From positions 1-42,518 of IMG/VR virus record IMGVR_UViG_3300023082_000019: DNA of 42,518 bases, one strand, 5' to 3'. The position numbers and the translations under genes were made by a program. Of this stretch, positions 5,255-41,670 are shown piece after piece. Under the pieces are notes generated by a model. The model worked only from the letters and a program-made list of their open reading frames with translations. It was not told where the DNA came from and did not search any database. The stretch comes from a virus. Position 1 is the stretch's first letter. Each line of letters begins with the position of its first letter.

Positions 5255-5746
5255 TTATCCCCTGTATTCAAATTGAATGAGCCAGCACCACGGATTGGTG
5301 TGGGCTGGAACGTCGGGCATCGTGCTCGACCAATACTTTGCAAAAGCGTCTGCGCTGGCGTATCCGCTGGCGCCCAGCTGGTGGTCAGTGACCTGGTCAA
5401 AACGGGTGATGCCAATGCGCCGAACAATCCCCGTACCTAGCCGTGAAAACTTCTGCGCGGGAAGGGCATGGAGCAGCTCGAATGCGTTGCCGACGCGTAT
5501 AGGGGCGGTTTCGGACGCTATCAGCCCTTGCCTGAATGCCTGCTGAACAGTGCGAACCAGCGCCAGTTCGTCACCTGGTGCGATACCGGCCTGGGCCATC
5601 ACGTCCGGATCGATCACCGGCTGGGGCCGGCAAGGCACGATCACCAGGCGCACGGCGCCGGTCTGGACCTTGAGCCCGATCGCGGGTGAGAAAGCCATTT
5701 TCTGCAGGCGAAAATCCAGTTCGTGCGCATCGATCGGCGCGCGCAT
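5255..5746 (-). CDS. ASCH-like hypothetical protein
   Basis: 163 residues. The C-terminal pattern IGITRFDQVTDHQLGASGY, then a Trp (KYW) and a WCWLIQFEY strand, resembles ASCH/PUA-type proteins that bind RNA or modified nucleotides. The N-terminal part (about 1-60) has GLKVQTGAVRLVIVPCRPQP. The start ATG 5746 overlaps the stop of the upstream gene by one base (TAATG), so translation is coupled. Family assignment is by eye only. Confidence 0.5.
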   Translation of the reverse strand: MRAPIDAHELDFRLQKMAFSPAIGLKVQTGAVRLVIVPCRPQPVIDPDVMAQAGIAPGDELALVRTVQQAFRQGLIASETAPIRVGNAFELLHALPAQKFSRLGTGIVRRIGITRFDQVTDHQLGASGYASADAFAKYWSSTMPDVPAHTNPWCWLIQFEYRG

Positions 5747-6042
5747 TAGCGGCTGACCAAGGTGAAGTGCGCCGAGTCCGGGCCCAGCCCGTATTCCTCA
5801 ATAAACTGCGCTTGAAGCTCGTCTACGATGACCTTGATTGCGGCTTTGGCTTCCAGGTAGTTCATGCGCAGGTTTTTCGGGGTGCTCCAATTGGTTTCGA
5901 TGGCGTTGCCGGCGCCGTCTTTGAGTTGCACCAAAGCCGTCCAGGCCACACGCTTTTTCGGTAGGCCGGCTTTGTACTTGCCCAGCTGCTGGCCGCGGTC
6001 GCCTTCGTACCGTACGTGTTGCCCGTCGAAGATGATTTTCAT
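5746..6042 (-). CDS. Hypothetical protein, first gene of a coupled pair
   Basis: 98 residues from ATG 6042, with AAGGGAAC upstream. It is basic and compact (FDGQHVRYEGDRGQQLGKYK, then a C-terminal helix with IKVIVDELQ). It is coupled by a TAATG junction to the next gene. No domain is recognised. Its upstream region is occupied on the opposite strand by the small RNA gene at 6090-6154. Confidence 0.6.
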   Translation of the reverse strand: MKIIFDGQHVRYEGDRGQQLGKYKAGLPKKRVAWTALVQLKDGAGNAIETNWSTPKNLRMNYLEAKAAIKVIVDELQAQFIEEYGLGPDSAHFTLVSR

Positions 6043-6055
6043 CGGGGTCGTTCCC

Positions 6056-6083
6056 TTGCTAATCGAGGTCAGGTGCATATAAT
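6056..6083 (+). promoter_or_regulatory. Sigma-70-type promoter of a short RNA gene
   Basis: TTGCTA (6056-6061), a 16-bp spacer, then a consensus TATAAT (6078-6083) on the plus strand, inside a block where all genes run the other way. Transcription would start near 6090 and meet a strong terminator at 6119-6154. Confidence 0.7.
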
Positions 6084-6089
6084 GCGAGG

Positions 6090-6154
6090 CACAATTATCT
6101 GGCTGATACTTGTGGAGGAAAGCCGCGGCCCTTACGGGAAACGCGGCTTTTTTT
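6090..6154 (+). ncRNA. Candidate small RNA with loop seed complementary to phage mRNA leaders
   Basis: About 65 nt lie between a consensus promoter and an intrinsic terminator, with no start codon usable for a protein. The 5' part can fold as CACAA (6090-6094) with TTGTG (6110-6114), leaving a 15-nt loop that contains TCTGGCTGAT (6098-6107). That decamer is the exact complement of ATCAGCCAGA, found just upstream of the genes at 11060, 14837 and 39921. The pairing reaches 12 bp at 14812-14823 and 11 bp at 39901-39911. The 3' part is a terminator hairpin. The inferred role is an antisense regulator of those mRNAs. Transcription itself is not shown by sequence alone. Confidence 0.55.
6119..6154 (+). 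terminator. Intrinsic terminator of the small RNA
   Basis: The stem is AAAGCCGCG (6119-6127) with CGCGGCTTT (6142-6150), an inner GCCC/GGG pairing and a run of seven T (6148-6154) on the plus strand. On the minus strand the hairpin is followed by only three T, so it is mainly a rightward terminator. Confidence 0.85.
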
Positions 6155-6168
6155 CGTCTGGCGTTTGG

Positions 6169-7089
6169 TCAGATGCCCTGTGGCACTTCCTCACCGCCCA
6201 TGGCCTCGAACAGATCCGGAAGGAATGAACGGAAGGTCAGCATCATCAGCACAAAGCTGGCGTCCAGCTGTCCCAGTGCATCGTCACCGCCGTCATCGTG
6301 CGCCTTGTCCACCAGCAGCGACTCGAATTTCAAGCGGGTGATGGTCAGGTCATCGTCGAGCACGAACGACAGATCGGCTTTGTAGGCCAGTGACAGGCGG
6401 GTACAGACCTTGCCGGTGCTCAGGTGCAGCTTCACCTCGTCACTGGTCAGGTCTTGGCGATCGCAGCGCACCTTGCCGCCGTCCTCGTGGGTGTCGCGCA
6501 GCTCGCAGCTGTCCAGGACAAAGAAATGTTCGTTAGTGCGTTCGGTCCTGAGCCAGTCGGTCATTACTGCGGTTGGCGCTGCTTTCACAGTGACCGGGCG
6601 CACAGGCAGTGAGCCCAGTACTTCGCGCAGGGTCGACAGCAGATCCTCGGCCGCGGGATTGCTGGCGGTATTCACCAGCACCAGGCCGCGCTCGACATCA
6701 ACGGCCGCGAAGGTGACGCGGTTGCGCAGGAACGCCCGAGGTAGGAACGCCTGAACCACTTCATCTTTGATCTGGTCACGTTCCTTTTTGTAGACCTTGC
6801 GCAGCTGCTCGGCCTCGATCTTCTCGATACGGGCCTTAACTTCGTCATTGACCGCGCCGCCTGGCAGCACGCGTTCCGTCTTCTTAGCGGCTACTAAAAG
6901 ATAGCCCGAGCTAGCGTGAACTAGCGGGGCGTCCTCGCCTTTGCCAAAGGGGGCGATAAAACCGTAGGTGTTCAGTTCCTGGCTGGCGGGCTCGCGCGCC
7001 GGCTTGGTGGCCAGGGCGAGCTGGAGTGCATCAACGTCGAAGGGCAGGGCTTGGGTGAGGCGGTAGACCAGCAGGTTTTTGAAGAACAT
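6169..7089 (-). CDS. rdgC: RdgC family recombination-associated protein
   Basis: 306 residues, the normal RdgC length. It starts with the family pattern [13 protein letters not shown] and contains the typical GFIAPFG and [20 protein letters not shown] blocks and a C-terminal [16 protein letters not shown]. Known RdgC proteins form ring dimers on double-stranded DNA and restrain RecA filament activity. In a phage this would protect replicating DNA from RecA or steer recombination. It is the third gene of a leftward ssb operon and is preceded by a 60-residue gene at 7093. Confidence 0.9.
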
Positions 7090-8907: not shown

Positions 8908-9915
8908 ATGAGCATCGTTCGCGCTGCAAGAAAATCTCAGTTCTACATGCTCCCGGCCTCGGTTATCGAGGACAAACGTCTGTCGTGGGCGGGGCGGGGC
9001 ATGCTGGTCTATCTGCTGAGCAAGCCGGACCACTGGCGCGTCCAGATCAAAGACCTGATCAACCAGACCAAAGAGGCGATCGGGGGGCGTTCGGGCCGCG
9101 ACAAGGTCTACAAGCTGATCAATGAACTGCGCGCTGCAGGATATCTGTACCAGGAGTTCACACGAGAGGGCGGCACCTTCCGGGGCGTTGAATACGAAGT
9201 CTCCGAAACCCCCGACCTTGAGCAGGCGGCGCGTTATGTGGCCAGCCTGGCAGTCAAATCCGAGGAACGTGGCCAGCCCGATCTGGAGCTACCGTTTCCG
9301 GAATTGCCGGAAACGGTCACACCGGATACGGCAACGCCGGTTCCGGCAAACCCGGAAACATTAGATAAGACTGAAAGAGCATTCCAGATTGAAAAAGCAG
9401 AAAAGAATACGGTTGCTCAGCTGGTGCCTGTCGAGCTGGGTGCTGACTCGATTGAAGGGCTGACTGCAGGGCAGCCGGACGACTACCCGGCCAATCCGTC
9501 GGGCAAGACCCATGATGCCTGGCAGGTCTACGCCGTCGCGTACCACATCCGTCACAAGGAATGGCCGGTCTACAACAAAACCGTAGGCAGCCTGATGGGC
9601 AAGATCGTTGACCGGATCGGCGCCAAGGCTCCACTGGCGGCTCAGTACTACGTCCGCAAAGAGAACGCCCACCAGATCGTCACCAGCTGCCACCCGCTCT
9701 CCGTTCTGCTCAAGGATTGCGAGGCCTATGCCACCAAATCCATCAAGGCCCGTCGTGTTGAGCTCAACGAGTCGCGCGCCCACCGCCCGGCGCCGGTCAT
9801 CGTCGATATCCCTTCGCAGTTCATCGCCCCCAAAACCCCCAAGGTTCCGTCAGCTGCTGCCAGTGCTGGCCTTGCCTCCCTGCGCGGTCGTAAAGCGCAA
9901 GGGGCATCAGCATGA
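8908..9915 (+). CDS. Phage replication initiator (helix-turn-helix, lambda O-like role)
   Basis: 335 residues with a strong GGAGGTG ribosome site. The N-terminal 95 residues (FYMLPASVIEDKRLSWAGRG, then YKLINELRAAGYLYQ) form a winged-helix domain common in phage replication proteins. A Pro-rich linker follows (about 125-155), encoded by five 15-bp DNA repeats. The C-terminal half (about 195-285) contains THDAWQVYAVAYHIRHKEWP and may be the helicase-loader contact. It probably binds the origin and recruits the host helicase. The gene carries its own putative origin, as lambda O does. It overlaps the next gene by four bases. Confidence 0.75.
   Translation: MSIVRAARKSQFYMLPASVIEDKRLSWAGRGMLVYLLSKPDHWRVQIKDLINQTKEAIGGRSGRDKVYKLINELRAAGYLYQEFTREGGTFRGVEYEVSETPDLEQAARYVASLAVKSEERGQPDLELPFPELPETVTPDTATPVPANPETLDKTERAFQIEKAEKNTVAQLVPVELGADSIEGLTAGQPDDYPANPSGKTHDAWQVYAVAYHIRHKEWPVYNKTVGSLMGKIVDRIGAKAPLAAQYYVRKENAHQIVTSCHPLSVLLKDCEAYATKSIKARRVELNESRAHRPAPVIVDIPSQFIAPKTPKVPSAAASAGLASLRGRKAQGASA
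9292..9412. other. Putative replication origin inside the initiator gene
   Basis: Five CCG-led repeats start at 9292, 9307, 9322, 9337 and 9352, exactly 15 bp apart: CCGTTTCCGG, CCGGAAACGG, CCGGATACGG, CCGGTTCCGG, CCGGAAACAT. The first two form a perfect inverted repeat (9292-9316). A purine-rich, AT-rich tract follows at 9361-9412. Iterons within the initiator gene followed by an easily melted purine-rich stretch is the arrangement of lambda ori. The 15-bp period also corresponds to a five-residue protein repeat, so the DNA role is inferred. Confidence 0.5.
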
Positions 9916-10319
9916 TCGCCGGCCGACACAAGACCAAGCCCGAGGAACAGTGGTGGCACGACGTGGGCGATATCTGTGGGTGCATCTGCTGCCTGCTCGA
10001 TGGCAAGCCGAGAGACTTCACATTGCCGGCGCACGTCTCGATTCACCACTGCGACGGCCGTACCAAAGCCCATGCCCATTACTTCGTGCTGCCGCTCTGT
10101 GAGGGTCATCACCAGCAAGGCACAGGCGAGAACAAGGCATTGCTGGCGGTTCACGGGAACAAGGCCCTGTTCATTGCCGAGTACGGCCGTGAAATCGAGC
10201 TGGTCGACAACTGCGTGTCGCTTGTGGAGGCGGCCGGCCGCACCGTGCCTGGCGGCGTATACGCTCTGCTGGCCAAGTGGGCAGCGCACCGCCAATACCT
10301 GGAAGCGCAAGCATGCTGA
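9912..10319 (+). CDS. Ref-like RecA-dependent nuclease
   Basis: 135 residues. The block HVSIHHCDGRTKAHAHYFVL, then PLCEGHHQ, with clustered His and Cys, is the signature of the phage P1 Ref family. These are HNH-type enzymes that cut DNA within RecA-formed displacement loops. An early CGCICC motif may bind zinc. In this phage it sits between the initiator and dUTPase genes and is coupled to both neighbours by overlaps. It suggests RecA-assisted processing of replication or recombination intermediates. Confidence 0.75.
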   Translation: MIAGRHKTKPEEQWWHDVGDICGCICCLLDGKPRDFTLPAHVSIHHCDGRTKAHAHYFVLPLCEGHHQQGTGENKALLAVHGNKALFIAEYGREIELVDNCVSLVEAAGRTVPGGVYALLAKWAAHRQYLEAQAC

Positions 10320-10969: not shown

Positions 10970-11027
10970 AACGCGCGTTAGCGCGAACGCGCGTAAACAG
11001 GTTGGCGCGTTCGCGCCTTTGTGCAAT
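10970..11027 (+). promoter_or_regulatory. GCGCG operator-promoter module 2
   Basis: Two palindromic elements, GCGCGAACGCGC (10981-10992) and GGCGCGTTCGCGCC (11004-11017), follow AACGCGCGTT (10970-10979). TTGGCG (11002-11007) is a plausible -35 box and TGCAAT/AATCAT near 11022-11030 a weak -10. The inner palindrome falls in the promoter spacer, so a bound repressor would block polymerase. Confidence 0.6.
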
Positions 11028-11039
11028 CATTGCCGGGCA

Positions 11040-11051
11040 AATCAGCCAGAG
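11040..11051 (+). promoter_or_regulatory. Leader site complementary to the small RNA (target 1)
   Basis: ATCAGCCAGA at 11041-11050 ends nine bases before ATG 11060. Its AGAG end is the only Shine-Dalgarno-like sequence for that start, so pairing would cover the ribosome site. Confidence 0.5.
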
Positions 11052-11059
11052 TTATCGAT

Positions 11060-11416
11060 ATGCCCAACCTTCCGATTGTTTTCAGTCCTATGAGCGCCAA
11101 GTTTTTGGCCGACAGGATGCGTTTTCTGGGGAATGCCGACCTGTTGGCAGACACCTACGAATTCAACCCGCCCGAGGGGTTCAACGCTGAATCCTGGGCG
11201 GATGCCGCACAGGCGATGACCGAAGCGCTACAGACCGGCAAGGCCATCGAGCCCACGGCCTGCAATGTGGAGCTGCTGGTGGAATCGCTCGAGGGAAATC
11301 GCTTGATCGGGCTTTGTGCCGCGAACAAGCGCACGGGATTGACTGAGGTGGCCAACCTGATTGCCAGACGGCTTGAGGCGTATGTCGGGCGCCCGGTTCG
11401 GCCGGAGCTCACCTGA
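11060..11416 (+). CDS. Hypothetical protein, first gene of the module 2 operon
   Basis: 118 residues from ATG 11060, chosen over 11021 because the promoter and leader motif lie between them. The protein is mixed alpha/beta without recognised domains (LADRMRFLGNADLLADTYEF; C-terminal helix VANLIARRLEAYVG). It heads a run of coupled genes reaching 12705. TGATG coupling links it to the next gene. Confidence 0.65.
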   Translation: MPNLPIVFSPMSAKFLADRMRFLGNADLLADTYEFNPPEGFNAESWADAAQAMTEALQTGKAIEPTACNVELLVESLEGNRLIGLCAANKRTGLTEVANLIARRLEAYVGRPVRPELT

Positions 11417-14744: not shown

Positions 14745-14802
14745 GGCGCGAACGCGCGTACGCACTAAAACAGGTTTGCGCGTACGCGCGTTCATGTATG
14801 AT
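14745..14802 (+). promoter_or_regulatory. GCGCG operator-promoter module 3
   Basis: The elements are GGCGCGAACGCGCG (14745-14758) and a perfect palindrome GCGCGTACGCGC (14778-14789). TTTGCG (14775-14780), 16 bp and TATGAT (14797-14802) form a credible promoter with the palindrome in its spacer. Confidence 0.7.
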
Positions 14803-14811
14803 GATTCGGCA

Positions 14812-14823
14812 ATCAGCCAGATA
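14812..14823 (+). promoter_or_regulatory. Leader site complementary to the small RNA (target 2)
   Basis: ATCAGCCAGATA is a 12-base exact complement of 6096-6107 in the small RNA. It lies between the promoter and the AGGAAG ribosome site of the leader peptide at 14837. Confidence 0.5.
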
Positions 14824-14836
14824 CAGGAAGCACCCC

Positions 14837-14890
14837 ATGTACACAGATATTTGCAGTCCGGCCGCCAGCGCCGGAAAGGGGGCGCGATGA
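14837..14890 (+). CDS. 17-residue leader peptide
   Basis: ATG 14837 has AGGAAG seven bases upstream and encodes MYTDICSPAASAGKGAR. Its stop overlaps the start of the 300-residue gene as ATGA (14887-14890), and that gene has no strong ribosome site other than GGGGGCG. Translation of the larger protein therefore probably depends on this leader, which is also where small RNA pairing would act. Confidence 0.55.
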   Translation: MYTDICSPAASAGKGAR

Positions 14891-15789
14891 ACGCCGCCGA
14901 AAAGCCGACCCGGCACGACTTCAACTTTTCCATGGGCGCAGAGAGCAAGCGCAAGCTGGATGACTTGATGTCGCGCTGTGGACACAACCAATTGAACCTG
15001 ACCGTCGCTCGTGCGCTGGCGCTGTTAGCGTGGGTGGAGGATCAAAGCGATTTGGGCCGCGTGGTGGGGAGCATTCGCTACGGCGACGAGCTGGACTTTG
15101 TCGAGCTTGAAGAACGCGCCGAGCTGTTGCGCCCGCGTCCGCGTCCTCACCTGGTGCCGGCCGTTGCGCCGATCGCCGAAGTGGTCGCTCCGATCGAGCC
15201 AGAGCCCGTCCCGGCGCCGGAACCCACCCCGCAACCTGAGCCAGCCCCAGCCCCAGAGCCTGCGCCTGTCGAGCCAGCCCCATTGACGGCAACGACCAAT
15301 CCGAAGCTGATGGCCCGGCCCAGGGTGGCACCCGCCCCGAGCGCGCCGCCTCGTGAGCGTTCGCGCCGCATGATGAAGCATGACGCCTACGAGCAAGACG
15401 ATAACGGCCCAATCAAAACGCTCAAGTACCTGCAAGCCAACTGCAAGGCCCGCGGCTGGCCACAACCGGTTGCATACGGCGCTCACTGCATGCCGGGCAA
15501 CCTGTACAAGCACCACGAGCAGCGCCTGAAAGAAATCATGGACAACCACCCCACGGCTACGCACTTCCGCATCGCGTTGCTTACCGAGGATCTGGCTTTT
15601 TGTTCGTACTCGCCCCAAAAGGGCTGGTGCGAATACGACGAGTCATCGGGTCGGTGGATCAAAGACATGAACCTGCACCACGGTACGTCCTGGATATATC
15701 CAGTGATCCACGCCGCCGAGTACCTACGCCGGTTTGGGAAAGAATCCCCGAACCCTCCGCAATATGACGATTCCTGCCCGAACTTCTAA
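14887..15789 (+). CDS. Two-domain hypothetical protein with Pro/Glu/Ala linker
   Basis: 300 residues from ATG 14887. The N-terminus (about 1-75) includes SMGAESKRKLDDLMSRCG, like a ribbon-helix-helix or coiled regulator. A repetitive linker (about 100-145) repeats EPxPAPEP. The C-terminal domain (about 165-300) is rich in aromatic, His and Cys residues (KARGWPQPVAYGAHCMPGNL; THFRIALLTEDLAFCSYSP). No family is recognised. Translation appears coupled to the leader peptide. Confidence 0.65.
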   Translation: MNAAEKPTRHDFNFSMGAESKRKLDDLMSRCGHNQLNLTVARALALLAWVEDQSDLGRVVGSIRYGDELDFVELEERAELLRPRPRPHLVPAVAPIAEVVAPIEPEPVPAPEPTPQPEPAPAPEPAPVEPAPLTATTNPKLMARPRVAPAPSAPPRERSRRMMKHDAYEQDDNGPIKTLKYLQANCKARGWPQPVAYGAHCMPGNLYKHHEQRLKEIMDNHPTATHFRIALLTEDLAFCSYSPQKGWCEYDESSGRWIKDMNLHHGTSWIYPVIHAAEYLRRFGKESPNPPQYDDSCPNF

Positions 15790-18291: not shown

Positions 18292-18341
18292 CGCGAACGC
18301 ACGAAAGCACGTTGGCGCGTACGCGCGTTCGCGCCTATACT
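18291..18341 (+). promoter_or_regulatory. GCGCG operator-promoter module 4
   Basis: GCGCGAACGCACG (18291-18303) is followed by GCGCGTACGCGC (18315-18326, perfect palindrome) and GCGTTCGCGCC. TTGGCG (18312-18317), 18 bp and TATACT (18336-18341) make the clearest promoter of the four. The leader that follows contains an inverted repeat GAAGGCC/GGCCTTC (18343-18370) and a CAGCCA that matches only part of the small RNA seed. Confidence 0.7.
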
Positions 18342-38130: not shown

Positions 38131-38985
38131 ATGACAAGCACAGCCCCGTATCAAGCCCTACTGCAGCGCGAAACCATCGAGCATGTTATCGACGGCCCGC
38201 CCGTGATCAATCACAGCGAGGCGTGGGGGCATTTGATCACCGTGGTGGTCGCGGGCGGCCCGCGAGGGGCACACACGATAGCCACTCACATGATCGTGTC
38301 CGGATCTGGTGACCGCCTGAGCAAGGATCGCCGCCGAGTAGAAATGATCGGGATACCCCTCTACACCACCAGCAGCGCCTGGATAACGCTGGCTAGTGCC
38401 GTTGCGCGTTATATCGAAGGCCTGCCGAACGTAACCGTGGCCATTGAGAACAAGGGGAACGGCACCGAATTCCGCCATCGGTTGAGCAAGTTGGCGCCCG
38501 CTGCGCGTTGCGTGAGCGTCCAATGGGGTGACGTTAATGTCTGCCCTGCGTATGCAGCGCGTTTCAGCAATACACGGGCGCAGGCGTACGTTCATGCTGT
38601 CGAGGCCATCAAGGACCGCGCAATTCGCCTCACCAGTGAAATGGCTGACACCATCCTTTGCCAGGGTAGCGATCTGGCCTACACCTTCGATCACCGTGGC
38701 GCGTACAGGCTTGAGAGCGAAATCGAACAGCACCTTGCTGGCGTAGATCAACCCGCCGTGTGGGACTCGATAGCCATGGCGTATGTCGAAGGTCTGGACT
38801 ATCTGCCAGCGATCGAGCAAACCACCGCTGTAGATGCGTGGGGGCTCGACCTTGAACGTATCGGCAAGGACGCCCAGCGCGGGATTGGCGCCAGCTCAGG
38901 CGATACGCTGCGCCTGCTGACCGAGGTGCTCGAGCTGCGCAAGCTCAAGGCTGAGTTTGCGGCCGTTGAGTCAAGATCGCTGTAG
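38131..38985 (+). CDS. Degenerate paralogue of the terminase nuclease domain
   Basis: 284 residues from ATG 38131. It aligns by eye with residues about 271-495 of the terL product: IEHVIDGPPVI with IERVIDGPRVI, SGSGDRLSKDRRRVEMIGIP with GNGDRMSPDRRRVEVVDVP, and VHAVEAIKDRAIRLTS with VHAIEAIKDGAIRFTS. There is no ATPase part. The catalytic acids are altered: Asp302 is Val39, Asp369 is Glu106, Asp473 is Ala209, while Asp476 is kept as Asp212. It is thus probably not a nuclease. It may bind DNA or TerL and tune packaging. The extra C-terminal 55 residues are helical. Confidence 0.75.
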   Translation: MTSTAPYQALLQRETIEHVIDGPPVINHSEAWGHLITVVVAGGPRGAHTIATHMIVSGSGDRLSKDRRRVEMIGIPLYTTSSAWITLASAVARYIEGLPNVTVAIENKGNGTEFRHRLSKLAPAARCVSVQWGDVNVCPAYAARFSNTRAQAYVHAVEAIKDRAIRLTSEMADTILCQGSDLAYTFDHRGAYRLESEIEQHLAGVDQPAVWDSIAMAYVEGLDYLPAIEQTTAVDAWGLDLERIGKDAQRGIGASSGDTLRLLTEVLELRKLKAEFAAVESRSL

Positions 38986-39100
38986 TCCCCAGGCCAAAAG
39001 TGAATCAACCCAATCAACATGACGGCTGACAGCCTATAAGCGCCACAAAACGACGAATAACCGTTTTAGAGCCTCAACATAGGTGTTTTTCGTCCGAAAC

Positions 39101-39900: not shown

Positions 39901-39911
39901 TATCAGCCAGA
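39901..39911 (+). promoter_or_regulatory. Leader site complementary to the small RNA (target 3)
   Basis: TATCAGCCAGA is an 11-base exact complement of 6098-6108. It ends nine bases before ATG 39921, the same spacing as at target 1, and covers the only AGAG-like ribosome site. Confidence 0.5.
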
Positions 39912-39920
39912 GACGCCCGC

Positions 39921-40154
39921 ATGACCACTCTCACCCAACGCCAGCTCACGATCACCAGCGCCTTGCTGGACGCCATCAAGACCGAACCGACCGACTACCA
40001 GCTGGCCATGGATGCCGTAAGGCAGCTGGGCCTTATCAAGGACGGCGGATGGATGGAAGTTCGCAACCTGCTGCAGGTGCTAATGGACGAGGGCAAGGTA
40101 GCGCGCGGCCCGTTTGATCCGCGCGGCCCGGAAACCTACGTGCGGTTGATCTGA
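39921..40154 (+). CDS. Small helical protein upstream of the methylase, possible regulator
   Basis: 77 residues. ITSALLDAIKTEPTDYQLAM and WMEVRNLLQVLMDEGKVARG suggest a winged-helix arrangement. It lies between a promoter with paired operators and the methylase gene, where a controller protein is expected, but it lacks a clear XRE pattern. Not recognised. Confidence 0.55.
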   Translation: MTTLTQRQLTITSALLDAIKTEPTDYQLAMDAVRQLGLIKDGGWMEVRNLLQVLMDEGKVARGPFDPRGPETYVRLI

Positions 40155-40206: not shown

Positions 40207-41670
40207 ATGATCACGATGCACAACCTGAAAATCGGCGAATCAAAGTCCGTCCCGCGCGTATGGCTTGAAGGCTCGAGCCTTGAGTTCGGTGGTTTGCAGA
40301 TCGGCTCCACCTACGCCATCGACAAGCTGGAGCCGCACCGCATTGAGCTGCGCCGTGTGAGCGCCGGGCACAAGGGGCAGACCTTTCTGGTGAGCCAGCG
40401 CACCCGTGGTCGTGTCCGTCCCCTGATGGAGATTCGCAGCAATAAGTTGCGTGAGTCGTTCGAGCACATCGAGAAGGTGACGGTCACGCTGCATGACGGC
40501 TCCATCGTCATCACCGCCAACCGTCTGGACGTGAACATGGTGCGCCGCGCCCTTTCCCTGCTGAACACTTTCAGCCGCGGTCAGGAGCTGTCCGCTATGA
40601 GCGTCTTCCACGGCGGCGGCGTGCTCGACCTGGCCATGCACGATGGTCTGACTGCCGAAGGGGTTCCGGTCTACGTCAAAGCCGCTGTCGAAATGGAGGA
40701 CAAGTATCTGGCGTCCTCGCTGCGCAACAACACCAAGCTGTGGCGCGACAGCTCTGTAGCCGTTCATTCGGACATCCGGCACGTCGATTGGCCGGCGCTG
40801 GGTGAAAGCAATCTGTTTTGGGGCGGGATTCCGTGCACGGGTGCGTCAATCTCAGGCCGATCGAAGAACAAGCTCAAGGCTGCTGAAGAGCATGTCGACG
40901 CCGGCGCGCTGTTCATGGACTTTCTTGATGGCGTGAAGTCCAGCAATGCCGCGATCGTGGGCTTTGAGAACGTGCCTGAGTACCAGAGCACCGTGTCGAT
41001 GATGCTGCTGCGCGCCAAGCTGGACACGTTGGGTTACGACCTTTACGAAATGGTGCTGGACGGCAATACGTTCGGCGCAGTTGAGCGCCGTCGCCGGCTG
41101 CTGGTTCTGGGGGTCTGCCGGAGCCTCAAAACGGCCTTCGACATCAACGACGTTCTCCCAGTCAGGATCAAGGAAGCCACACTGCGCGACATCATGGAGC
41201 CGGTAGCGCTCGACTCACCCCGCTGGCGCGAGCGTAAGGGCATTGCAGCCAAAGCAATCCGCGACAAGGCCGATGGCAAGGGGTTTGCTCCCCAGCAGCT
41301 TACGGGTGACGAGGCGCATTGCGGGACTATTGGCAAGGGCTACGCCAAGTGTCGCGGGACTGAGCCGTTCCTGATCCATCCGGACAATCCAAGCTTGCTG
41401 CGCATCCTCACTCCCCTTGAGCACGGCCGCGCGAAGGGCATCCCCGAAGGTGTCGCTGATGGCCAGTCGGACACGACCATGCACGAGATTTACGGTCAGT
41501 CCGTCATCTATCCAAAGCTCAAGGCGTTAGGCGCAGCTACGGGCCGGCTGATCCGGGAGGCTGCTCTCAAGTTCACGTCCAAGCCCGTTCGGATCGTGCC
41601 TCGCAGGCCCAAGGCATTGCCGGCACCAGACATGCAATACGATTTGCCGGGGCTGGCCGCCAGCAACTGA
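40207..41670 (+). CDS. C5-cytosine DNA methyltransferase with N-terminal extension
   Basis: 487 residues. Catalytic motifs: I, SVFHGGGVLDLA (132-143); IV, GGIPCTGASISG with nucleophile Cys210 (PCT in place of the usual PCQ); VI, FENVPE (253-258); VIII, AVERRRRLLVLG (291-302); and a closing MHEIYGQSVIYPKLKALG like motifs IX-X. Residues 1-128 are an added domain (SLEFGGLQIGSTYAIDKLEP) of unknown role. It should methylate cytosine C5 using S-adenosylmethionine, most likely to protect phage DNA. No restriction enzyme partner is seen. Confidence 0.88.
   Translation: MITMHNLKIGESKSVPRVWLEGSSLEFGGLQIGSTYAIDKLEPHRIELRRVSAGHKGQTFLVSQRTRGRVRPLMEIRSNKLRESFEHIEKVTVTLHDGSIVITANRLDVNMVRRALSLLNTFSRGQELSAMSVFHGGGVLDLAMHDGLTAEGVPVYVKAAVEMEDKYLASSLRNNTKLWRDSSVAVHSDIRHVDWPALGESNLFWGGIPCTGASISGRSKNKLKAAEEHVDAGALFMDFLDGVKSSNAAIVGFENVPEYQSTVSMMLLRAKLDTLGYDLYEMVLDGNTFGAVERRRRLLVLGVCRSLKTAFDINDVLPVRIKEATLRDIMEPVALDSPRWRERKGIAAKAIRDKADGKGFAPQQLTGDEAHCGTIGKGYAKCRGTEPFLIHPDNPSLLRILTPLEHGRAKGIPEGVADGQSDTTMHEIYGQSVIYPKLKALGAATGRLIREAALKFTSKPVRIVPRRPKALPAPDMQYDLPGLAASN

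Follow-up and report, generated by a model that had tools for sequence, protein, structure and literature searches.

A candidate trans-acting antisense RNA gene beside rdgC in a family of Pseudomonas phage-plasmids, and the co-variation of its loop with phage leader sequences

Between two minus-strand genes of a virus record of 42,518 bases, analysed here in full and referred to as the window, lies a short unit on the opposite strand whose loop has its exact complement ahead of three distant operons. Does this locus encode an RNA that acts on the mRNAs of its own phage, or is the shared sequence a protein-binding site or a coincidence? An earlier note on this DNA had proposed an antisense RNA that co-regulates three operons, one of them the methylase operon. 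The anatomy of the locus, its homologues and the behaviour of loop and leaders across relatives are considered in turn.

Anatomy and homologues of the locus

The features of the locus are as follows.

5746–6042, minus strand: 98-aa gene on one flank of the small RNA, a neighbour conserved in most relatives
6056–6083, plus strand: σ70-type promoter TTGCTA-N16-TATAAT, from sequence, with promoter-like hexamers at the corresponding position of nearly all 16 homologues
6090–6154, plus strand: predicted small RNA of ~65 nt, start inferred from the −10 box and end from the terminator
6090–6114, plus strand: 5′ stem-loop CACAA-t-TATC-UGGCU-GATA-c-TTGTG bearing the antisense loop, from the fold and from paired outer-stem changes between clades
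6098–6107, plus strand: antisense seed TCTGGCTGAT, complementary to three leaders (sequence match)
6115–6154, plus strand: intrinsic terminator with GC-rich stem and U7 tail, from sequence and fold
6169–7089, minus strand: rdgC, the gene adjoining the small RNA

The promoter is the top σ70-like match on the plus strand of the first 20 kb in a consensus scan (10/12). The predicted RNA (CACAATTATCTGGCTGATACTTGTGGAGGAAAGCCGCGGCCCTTACGGGAAACGCGGCTTTTTTT) consists of the stem-loop followed by the terminator, which together fold at −30.8 kcal/mol (z = −4.7, 0/200 shuffles), and its strand is opposite to that of rdgC and of the 98-aa gene. Scan, fold and strands bear out the promoter and terminator that had been described around about 65 nt opposite to the neighbouring genes. 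The CACAA/TTGTG stem also stands, but the loop is smaller than had been thought: only UGGCU is unpaired in the predicted fold of the window RNA because UAUC/GAUA lengthens the stem. A larger open loop is predicted in clade B relatives. In the window no Rfam family scores at or above its gathering threshold and no tRNA is found, and neither a search for the exact 25-nt hairpin in viral contigs nor blastn of the RNA region against phages returned a match. Any rdgC transcript reaching the 98-aa gene would be fully complementary to the small RNA (6042–6169, minus strand) and could serve as a sponge.

With rdgC as the lead, 27 related contigs are found. The same RNA gene lies downstream of rdgC, on the opposite strand, in 15 further records (16 with the window). 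A terminator with a U-tract is present on the plus strand at all 16 loci and promoter-like hexamers at nearly all (weak in G017); judged by sequence only, the small RNA is an independent transcription unit with its own promoter and intrinsic terminator. The U-rich terminator tail of the homologues is compatible with Hfq (or ProQ) binding, and no more than that. Scans of genome contigs with the 98-aa neighbour or with the first target protein (T1, below) yielded no relatives, and tblastn of the same two proteins against the phage collection gave no match.

TCTGGC(T)GA is invariant across the homologues. The outer stem, by comparison, is replaced between clades yet remains paired: clade A has CACAA/TTGTG, clade B ACTTT/AAAGT or something close to it, G010 and G011 CCCCACC with GGGTTGGGG, and Pseudomonas atacamensis SM1 GCAAAT/ATTTGC. 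Both sides have changed from A-U to U-A in 6 of 13 sequences and from A-U to G-C in one. In the 13-sequence alignment 79 % of stem cells are paired, against 64 % when shuffled and 34–47 % when slid, and 14 stem cells are doubly changed against 7 when shuffled. In two relatives without the small RNA (L012 and L014) a C-terminal extension of RdgC fills the intergenic space. Two further contigs, L118 and L124, conform to the RNA pattern, but no leader matches it in the part of their sequence covered, and they were dropped as chance.

Two of the rdgC-linked records are complete plasmids, pKF715C of P. putida KF715 (94,696 bp) and that of P. fluorescens DR133 (80,993 bp); a third plasmid, from P. 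atacamensis SM1 (81,190 bp), was reached through T1. The predicted RNA maps to about 93,467–93,531 on the minus strand of pKF715C (NZ_AP015032.1) and to about 38,937–39,000 on the plus strand of the SM1 plasmid (NZ_CP070504.1). RepA, a terminase small subunit, a ParA- or MipZ-type ATPase and an integrase are encoded on both pKF715C and the SM1 plasmid, and the latter additionally carries tail and baseplate genes. The family is thus best described as phage-plasmids, and homology and gene order lead us to infer that the window represents part of a Pseudomonas phage-plasmid, kin to these 80–95 kb plasmids. pKF715C also carries a mercury-resistance transposon with mer genes and a Tn3-family transposase (L137, 33857–43779).

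Target leaders in the window and in relatives

The sites complementary to the seed and the genes behind them are listed below.

11041–11050, plus strand: target site 1, ATCAGCCAGA, ending 9 nt before the ATG of a 118-aa gene (sequence match)
11060–11416, plus strand: target gene T1, 118 aa, without a Pfam match, downstream of a dUTPase gene
14812–14821, plus strand: target site 2, ATCAGCCAGAT, a 12-nt match counting the next base, 5′ of a CAGGAAG Shine-Dalgarno sequence
14837–14890, plus strand: 17-codon upstream ORF with an ATGA overlap with the next start
14887–15789, plus strand: target gene T2, 300 aa, without a Pfam match
39902–39911, plus strand: target site 3, TATCAGCCAGA, 11 nt, ending 9 nt before an ATG (sequence match)
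39921–40154, plus strand: 77-aa gene that opens the third target operon
40207–41670, plus strand: C5 DNA methylase (PF00145), the second gene in that operon

Exact copies of ATCAGCCAGA lie at 11041, 14812 and 39902 on the plus strand and at 6098–6107 on the minus strand, four in all against 0.05 expected. The match lengths given previously for the three leaders (10, 12 and 11) are reproduced, as is the spacing of exactly 9 nt before the ATG at two of them (11041 and 39902). The sites had also been placed between promoter and start codon; their leader position holds, but the consensus scan misses the leader promoters, so that this part of the description rests on the eye. One correction applies at 14812, where the site precedes the 17-codon ORF, which runs into the start codon of the main gene. 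Translational coupling of this ORF and the main gene is probable, and a short ORF with the same ATGA overlap also precedes the main start in G001, G002 and G008.

The targets lie 5–34 kb from the small RNA locus, and the RNA is complementary to translation start regions of mRNAs encoded elsewhere. Co-folding predicts the loop helix with all three leaders, with net gains of −1.6, −10.4 and −18.8 kcal/mol; the gain is small at T1 because the T1 leader folds on itself. T1 and the methylase operon have no Shine-Dalgarno-like bases other than the AGAG with which the complementary sequence, hereafter the tag, ends.

Fourteen genome-scale records carry three to seven leaders with the tag each, mostly in the version of their own genome, so the regulon exceeds three operons in some relatives. 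In the relatives the tag precedes T1 orthologues and genes for an 80-aa membrane-like protein, for a CxxC zinc-finger-like protein (T3), for ParA-type ATPases (G001 and G006) and for a large protein of 280–563 aa; in clade B it also stands before the Ref nuclease gene and before a gene whose start codon it touches. T1 and T3 are found in both clades, each bearing the tag version of its own clade. The distance from tag to ATG is mostly 8–17 nt, inside the 30S footprint, with the reservation that leader status depends on ORF calls. Matches to ATCAGCCAGA in L020–L026 were rejected, being in unrelated sequence with no start codon at the leader position.

Two further observations concern these regions. 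The Ref (RecA-dependent) nuclease gene predicted as a clade B target is located around 7309 in L008 and around 7288 in L015 (minus strand); the Ref homologue of the window (9912–10319) has no tag. Separately, 12-bp dyads (GCGCGAACGCGC and variants) occur at 10981–11016, 14746–14789 and 18315–18326, in pairs spaced by 24 or 32 bp ahead of the T1 and T2 genes and single at 18315, and the same is seen in G001, G002 and G008. They are probably operators of an unidentified phage regulator common to two of the small-RNA targets.

Co-variation of loop and tags

The persistence of the leader motif beside an unrelated loop had been named by the earlier note as the outcome that would refute the proposal. 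No such case is seen in the 16 genomes with the element, whose leaders mostly complement their own loop. Four loop versions exist (ATCTGGCTGAT, TTCTGGCTGAA, CTCTGGCTGAG and TCTCTGGCGA). Where the loop is ATC..GAT (the window, G002, G003, G006 and G008), A precedes 22 of 28 TCAGCCAGA leader sites; T precedes 6 of 10 where it is TTC..GAA (G001 and G010); and C stands at 4/4 sites, one perhaps in coding sequence, where it is CTC..GAG (SM1). The six genomes with the TCTCTGGCGA loop (G004, G005, G007, G009, G016 and G017) have only two TCAGCCAGA leader sites, and most of their TCGCCAGA leader sites are preceded by A (18). Fisher's test gives p = 0.0017 for A vs T and 3e-12 for the TCAGCC vs TCGCC core, with sites that are not independent. 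The genome-by-loop matrix is nearly block diagonal at a threshold of 10 nt, and at 9 nt the real loop has 3–9 leader matches against 0.04–0.2 for shuffled loops. These statistics count orthologous leaders as independent; the loop changes amount to at least three events, not dozens.

The T1 leaders provide the cleanest test, as nothing but loop and tag varies while the gene stays constant. Across the T1 orthologues of 13 genomes the mean run with the own loop is 11.7 nt against 8.5 nt with swapped loops, and the pairing energies are −22.5 and −17.5 kcal/mol respectively (0/20,000 permutations). The best blind test is SM1, since it was found through the T1 protein only and the RNA gene was then located where expected: it has the new loop CTCTGGCTGAG at the predicted place, with matches of 12–15 nt to its three leaders. 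Conversely, G013 and G014 have neither the RNA gene nor the tag, yet have kept the T1 orthologue, and a search of both for a diverged RNA complementary to their own T1 leader (TTAGCCATYCAGGGC) found no partner. Exceptions to the pattern are the T2 leader of G001, still ATC though the loop is TTC, a few sites with a third base, and the T1 leaders of G004 and G005, which match over 9 nt only.

The predicted pairing of loop and leader is strongly supported by co-variation, and given that loop and tags change together across 16 genomes, the RNA very probably controls the tagged genes by direct pairing. Co-regulation of three operons, as first proposed, is supported; with transcription and regulatory outcome unmeasured and no expression data at hand, that support is comparative rather than experimental.

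Mechanism, alternatives and relation to known phage RNAs

We hold it highly likely that the locus is the gene of a trans-acting antisense sRNA of a Pseudomonas phage-plasmid family, which pairs with several phage mRNAs and probably lowers their translation. A host σ70 promoter would give rise to a transcript of ~65 nt, itself inferred, made up of the 5′ stem-loop and the intrinsic terminator with its U-tail. The loop (UCUGGCUGA or UCUGGCGA) would pair with a tag of 9–15 nt in the ribosome-binding region of at least three phage mRNAs in the window and up to seven in a relative. Pairing near the start is expected to block initiation, an effect well established for sRNAs at large, and here it would most likely lower translation by covering the Shine-Dalgarno sequence or the 30S landing site, repression being an inference. 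Hfq probably assists the pairing, again by inference. Early or accessory phage operons may in this way be held down in the plasmid-prophage state, although both timing and purpose are inferred.

That the RNA pairs but activates or stabilises the mRNAs, or that the leaders are sponges of the RNA, is unlikely. The sign of regulation is not fixed by position and some sites are 5′ of a separate Shine-Dalgarno sequence, as at 14812; against this, the tag of T1 and of the methylase operon overlaps the sole Shine-Dalgarno-like bases, 9 nt before the ATG, and the clade B tag touches the start codon, where pairing would block initiation. A chance match of a 10-mer, with 0.05 expected in the window and co-variation in 16 genomes, is already refuted.

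The remaining alternatives dispense with the antisense RNA. A phage regulator could bind the shared sequence as a DNA operator, at the rdgC-side promoter and just downstream of the target promoters; the window site does lie 14 bp after the −10 box in a 25-bp dyad, the leader sites are near probable transcription starts, and the sites of a DNA-binding protein would co-vary with each other too. Yet the sequence has one orientation relative to the gene in all target families and keeps its distance to the ATG, the leaders break the dyad (G is as frequent as T after CCAGA), and the clade B RNA site is a poor dyad. In five clade B records the site falls where two ORFs overlap as ATGA, not a position at which one would expect a promoter, and a U-tailed terminator, needless for an operator, follows the dyad in every homologue. 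We therefore give an operator little credence. Still more improbable is an RNA-binding protein with AUCAGCCAGA as its recognition sequence in leaders and rdgC mRNA alike, the antisense strand being incidental. The minus-strand transcript of the rdgC locus bears the same sense sequence as the leaders, but 57–71 nt separate this copy from the next start codon, as against about 10, the protein would have to follow the change of core between clades, and it is the plus strand that bears the terminator U-tract at all 16 loci and promoter hexamers at nearly all.

The list of small RNAs known to be encoded by phages is short, and where targets have been identified they are mostly a single phage mRNA or host genes. 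The antisense RNA inferred here resembles VpdS of phage VP882, a linear plasmid phage of Vibrio, in being a trans-acting sRNA from a plasmid-like temperate phage; VpdS is ~50 nt and acts on phage and host mRNAs via Hfq (PMC12197685). Host, sequence and context differ, and no report was found for VpdS of a shared tag in several phage leaders that co-evolves with the sRNA loop. The c4 RNA of P1 and P7, likewise a phage-plasmid antisense RNA, is made from the leader of the operon that it controls. It is ~77 nt, and its loops pair around a ribosome-binding site (PMC12197685). Its described target is the ant mRNA only, whereas the RNA of the present family would serve three to seven operons from a separate locus with a promoter and terminator of its own. 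The window RNA is not encoded in the leader of a controlled operon but has its own promoter next to rdgC, and it matches no described Rfam RNA family, so that neither mark of a c4-type RNA applies. The sar RNA of P22 (68–69 nt) represses antirepressor translation by base pairing (PMC12197685); it has a single target and no common short tag in many leaders. Other phage-encoded regulatory RNAs are PreS of lambda, 24B_1 of Phi24B and the antisense RNAs of the Pseudomonas phage PAK_P4 (PMC12197685). PreS acts on host dnaN, 24B_1 is a 20-nt product and PAK_P4as15 is long and antisense in cis; for none of them has a regulon of several phage leaders been described. In the open-licence literature no report of the small RNA was found, the pKF715C paper being a genome announcement, and no described counterpart, in keeping with the initial view that no such case was known in these phages.

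One small RNA seems to co-ordinate many operons of its own phage, in a phage-plasmid family that occurs in Pseudomonas of soil and rhizosphere. With their matching leaders, the loop variants that exist in nature are ready-made compensatory mutants, so that specificity is directly testable by swaps between relatives. A wider picture can be offered only tentatively, as possible rather than probable: a phage-plasmid RNA regulon in which three to seven operons (by member, with partition ATPase, Ref nuclease or DNA methylase) are placed under one sRNA by the tag, in which loop and tags have been recoded at least three times, in which rdgC read-through is a releasing sponge, and in which the lineage codes could act as an immunity type between co-resident relatives. 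If these codes do not cross-react, they would constitute an RNA-based identity system with a bearing on which phage-plasmids are able to coexist in one cell.
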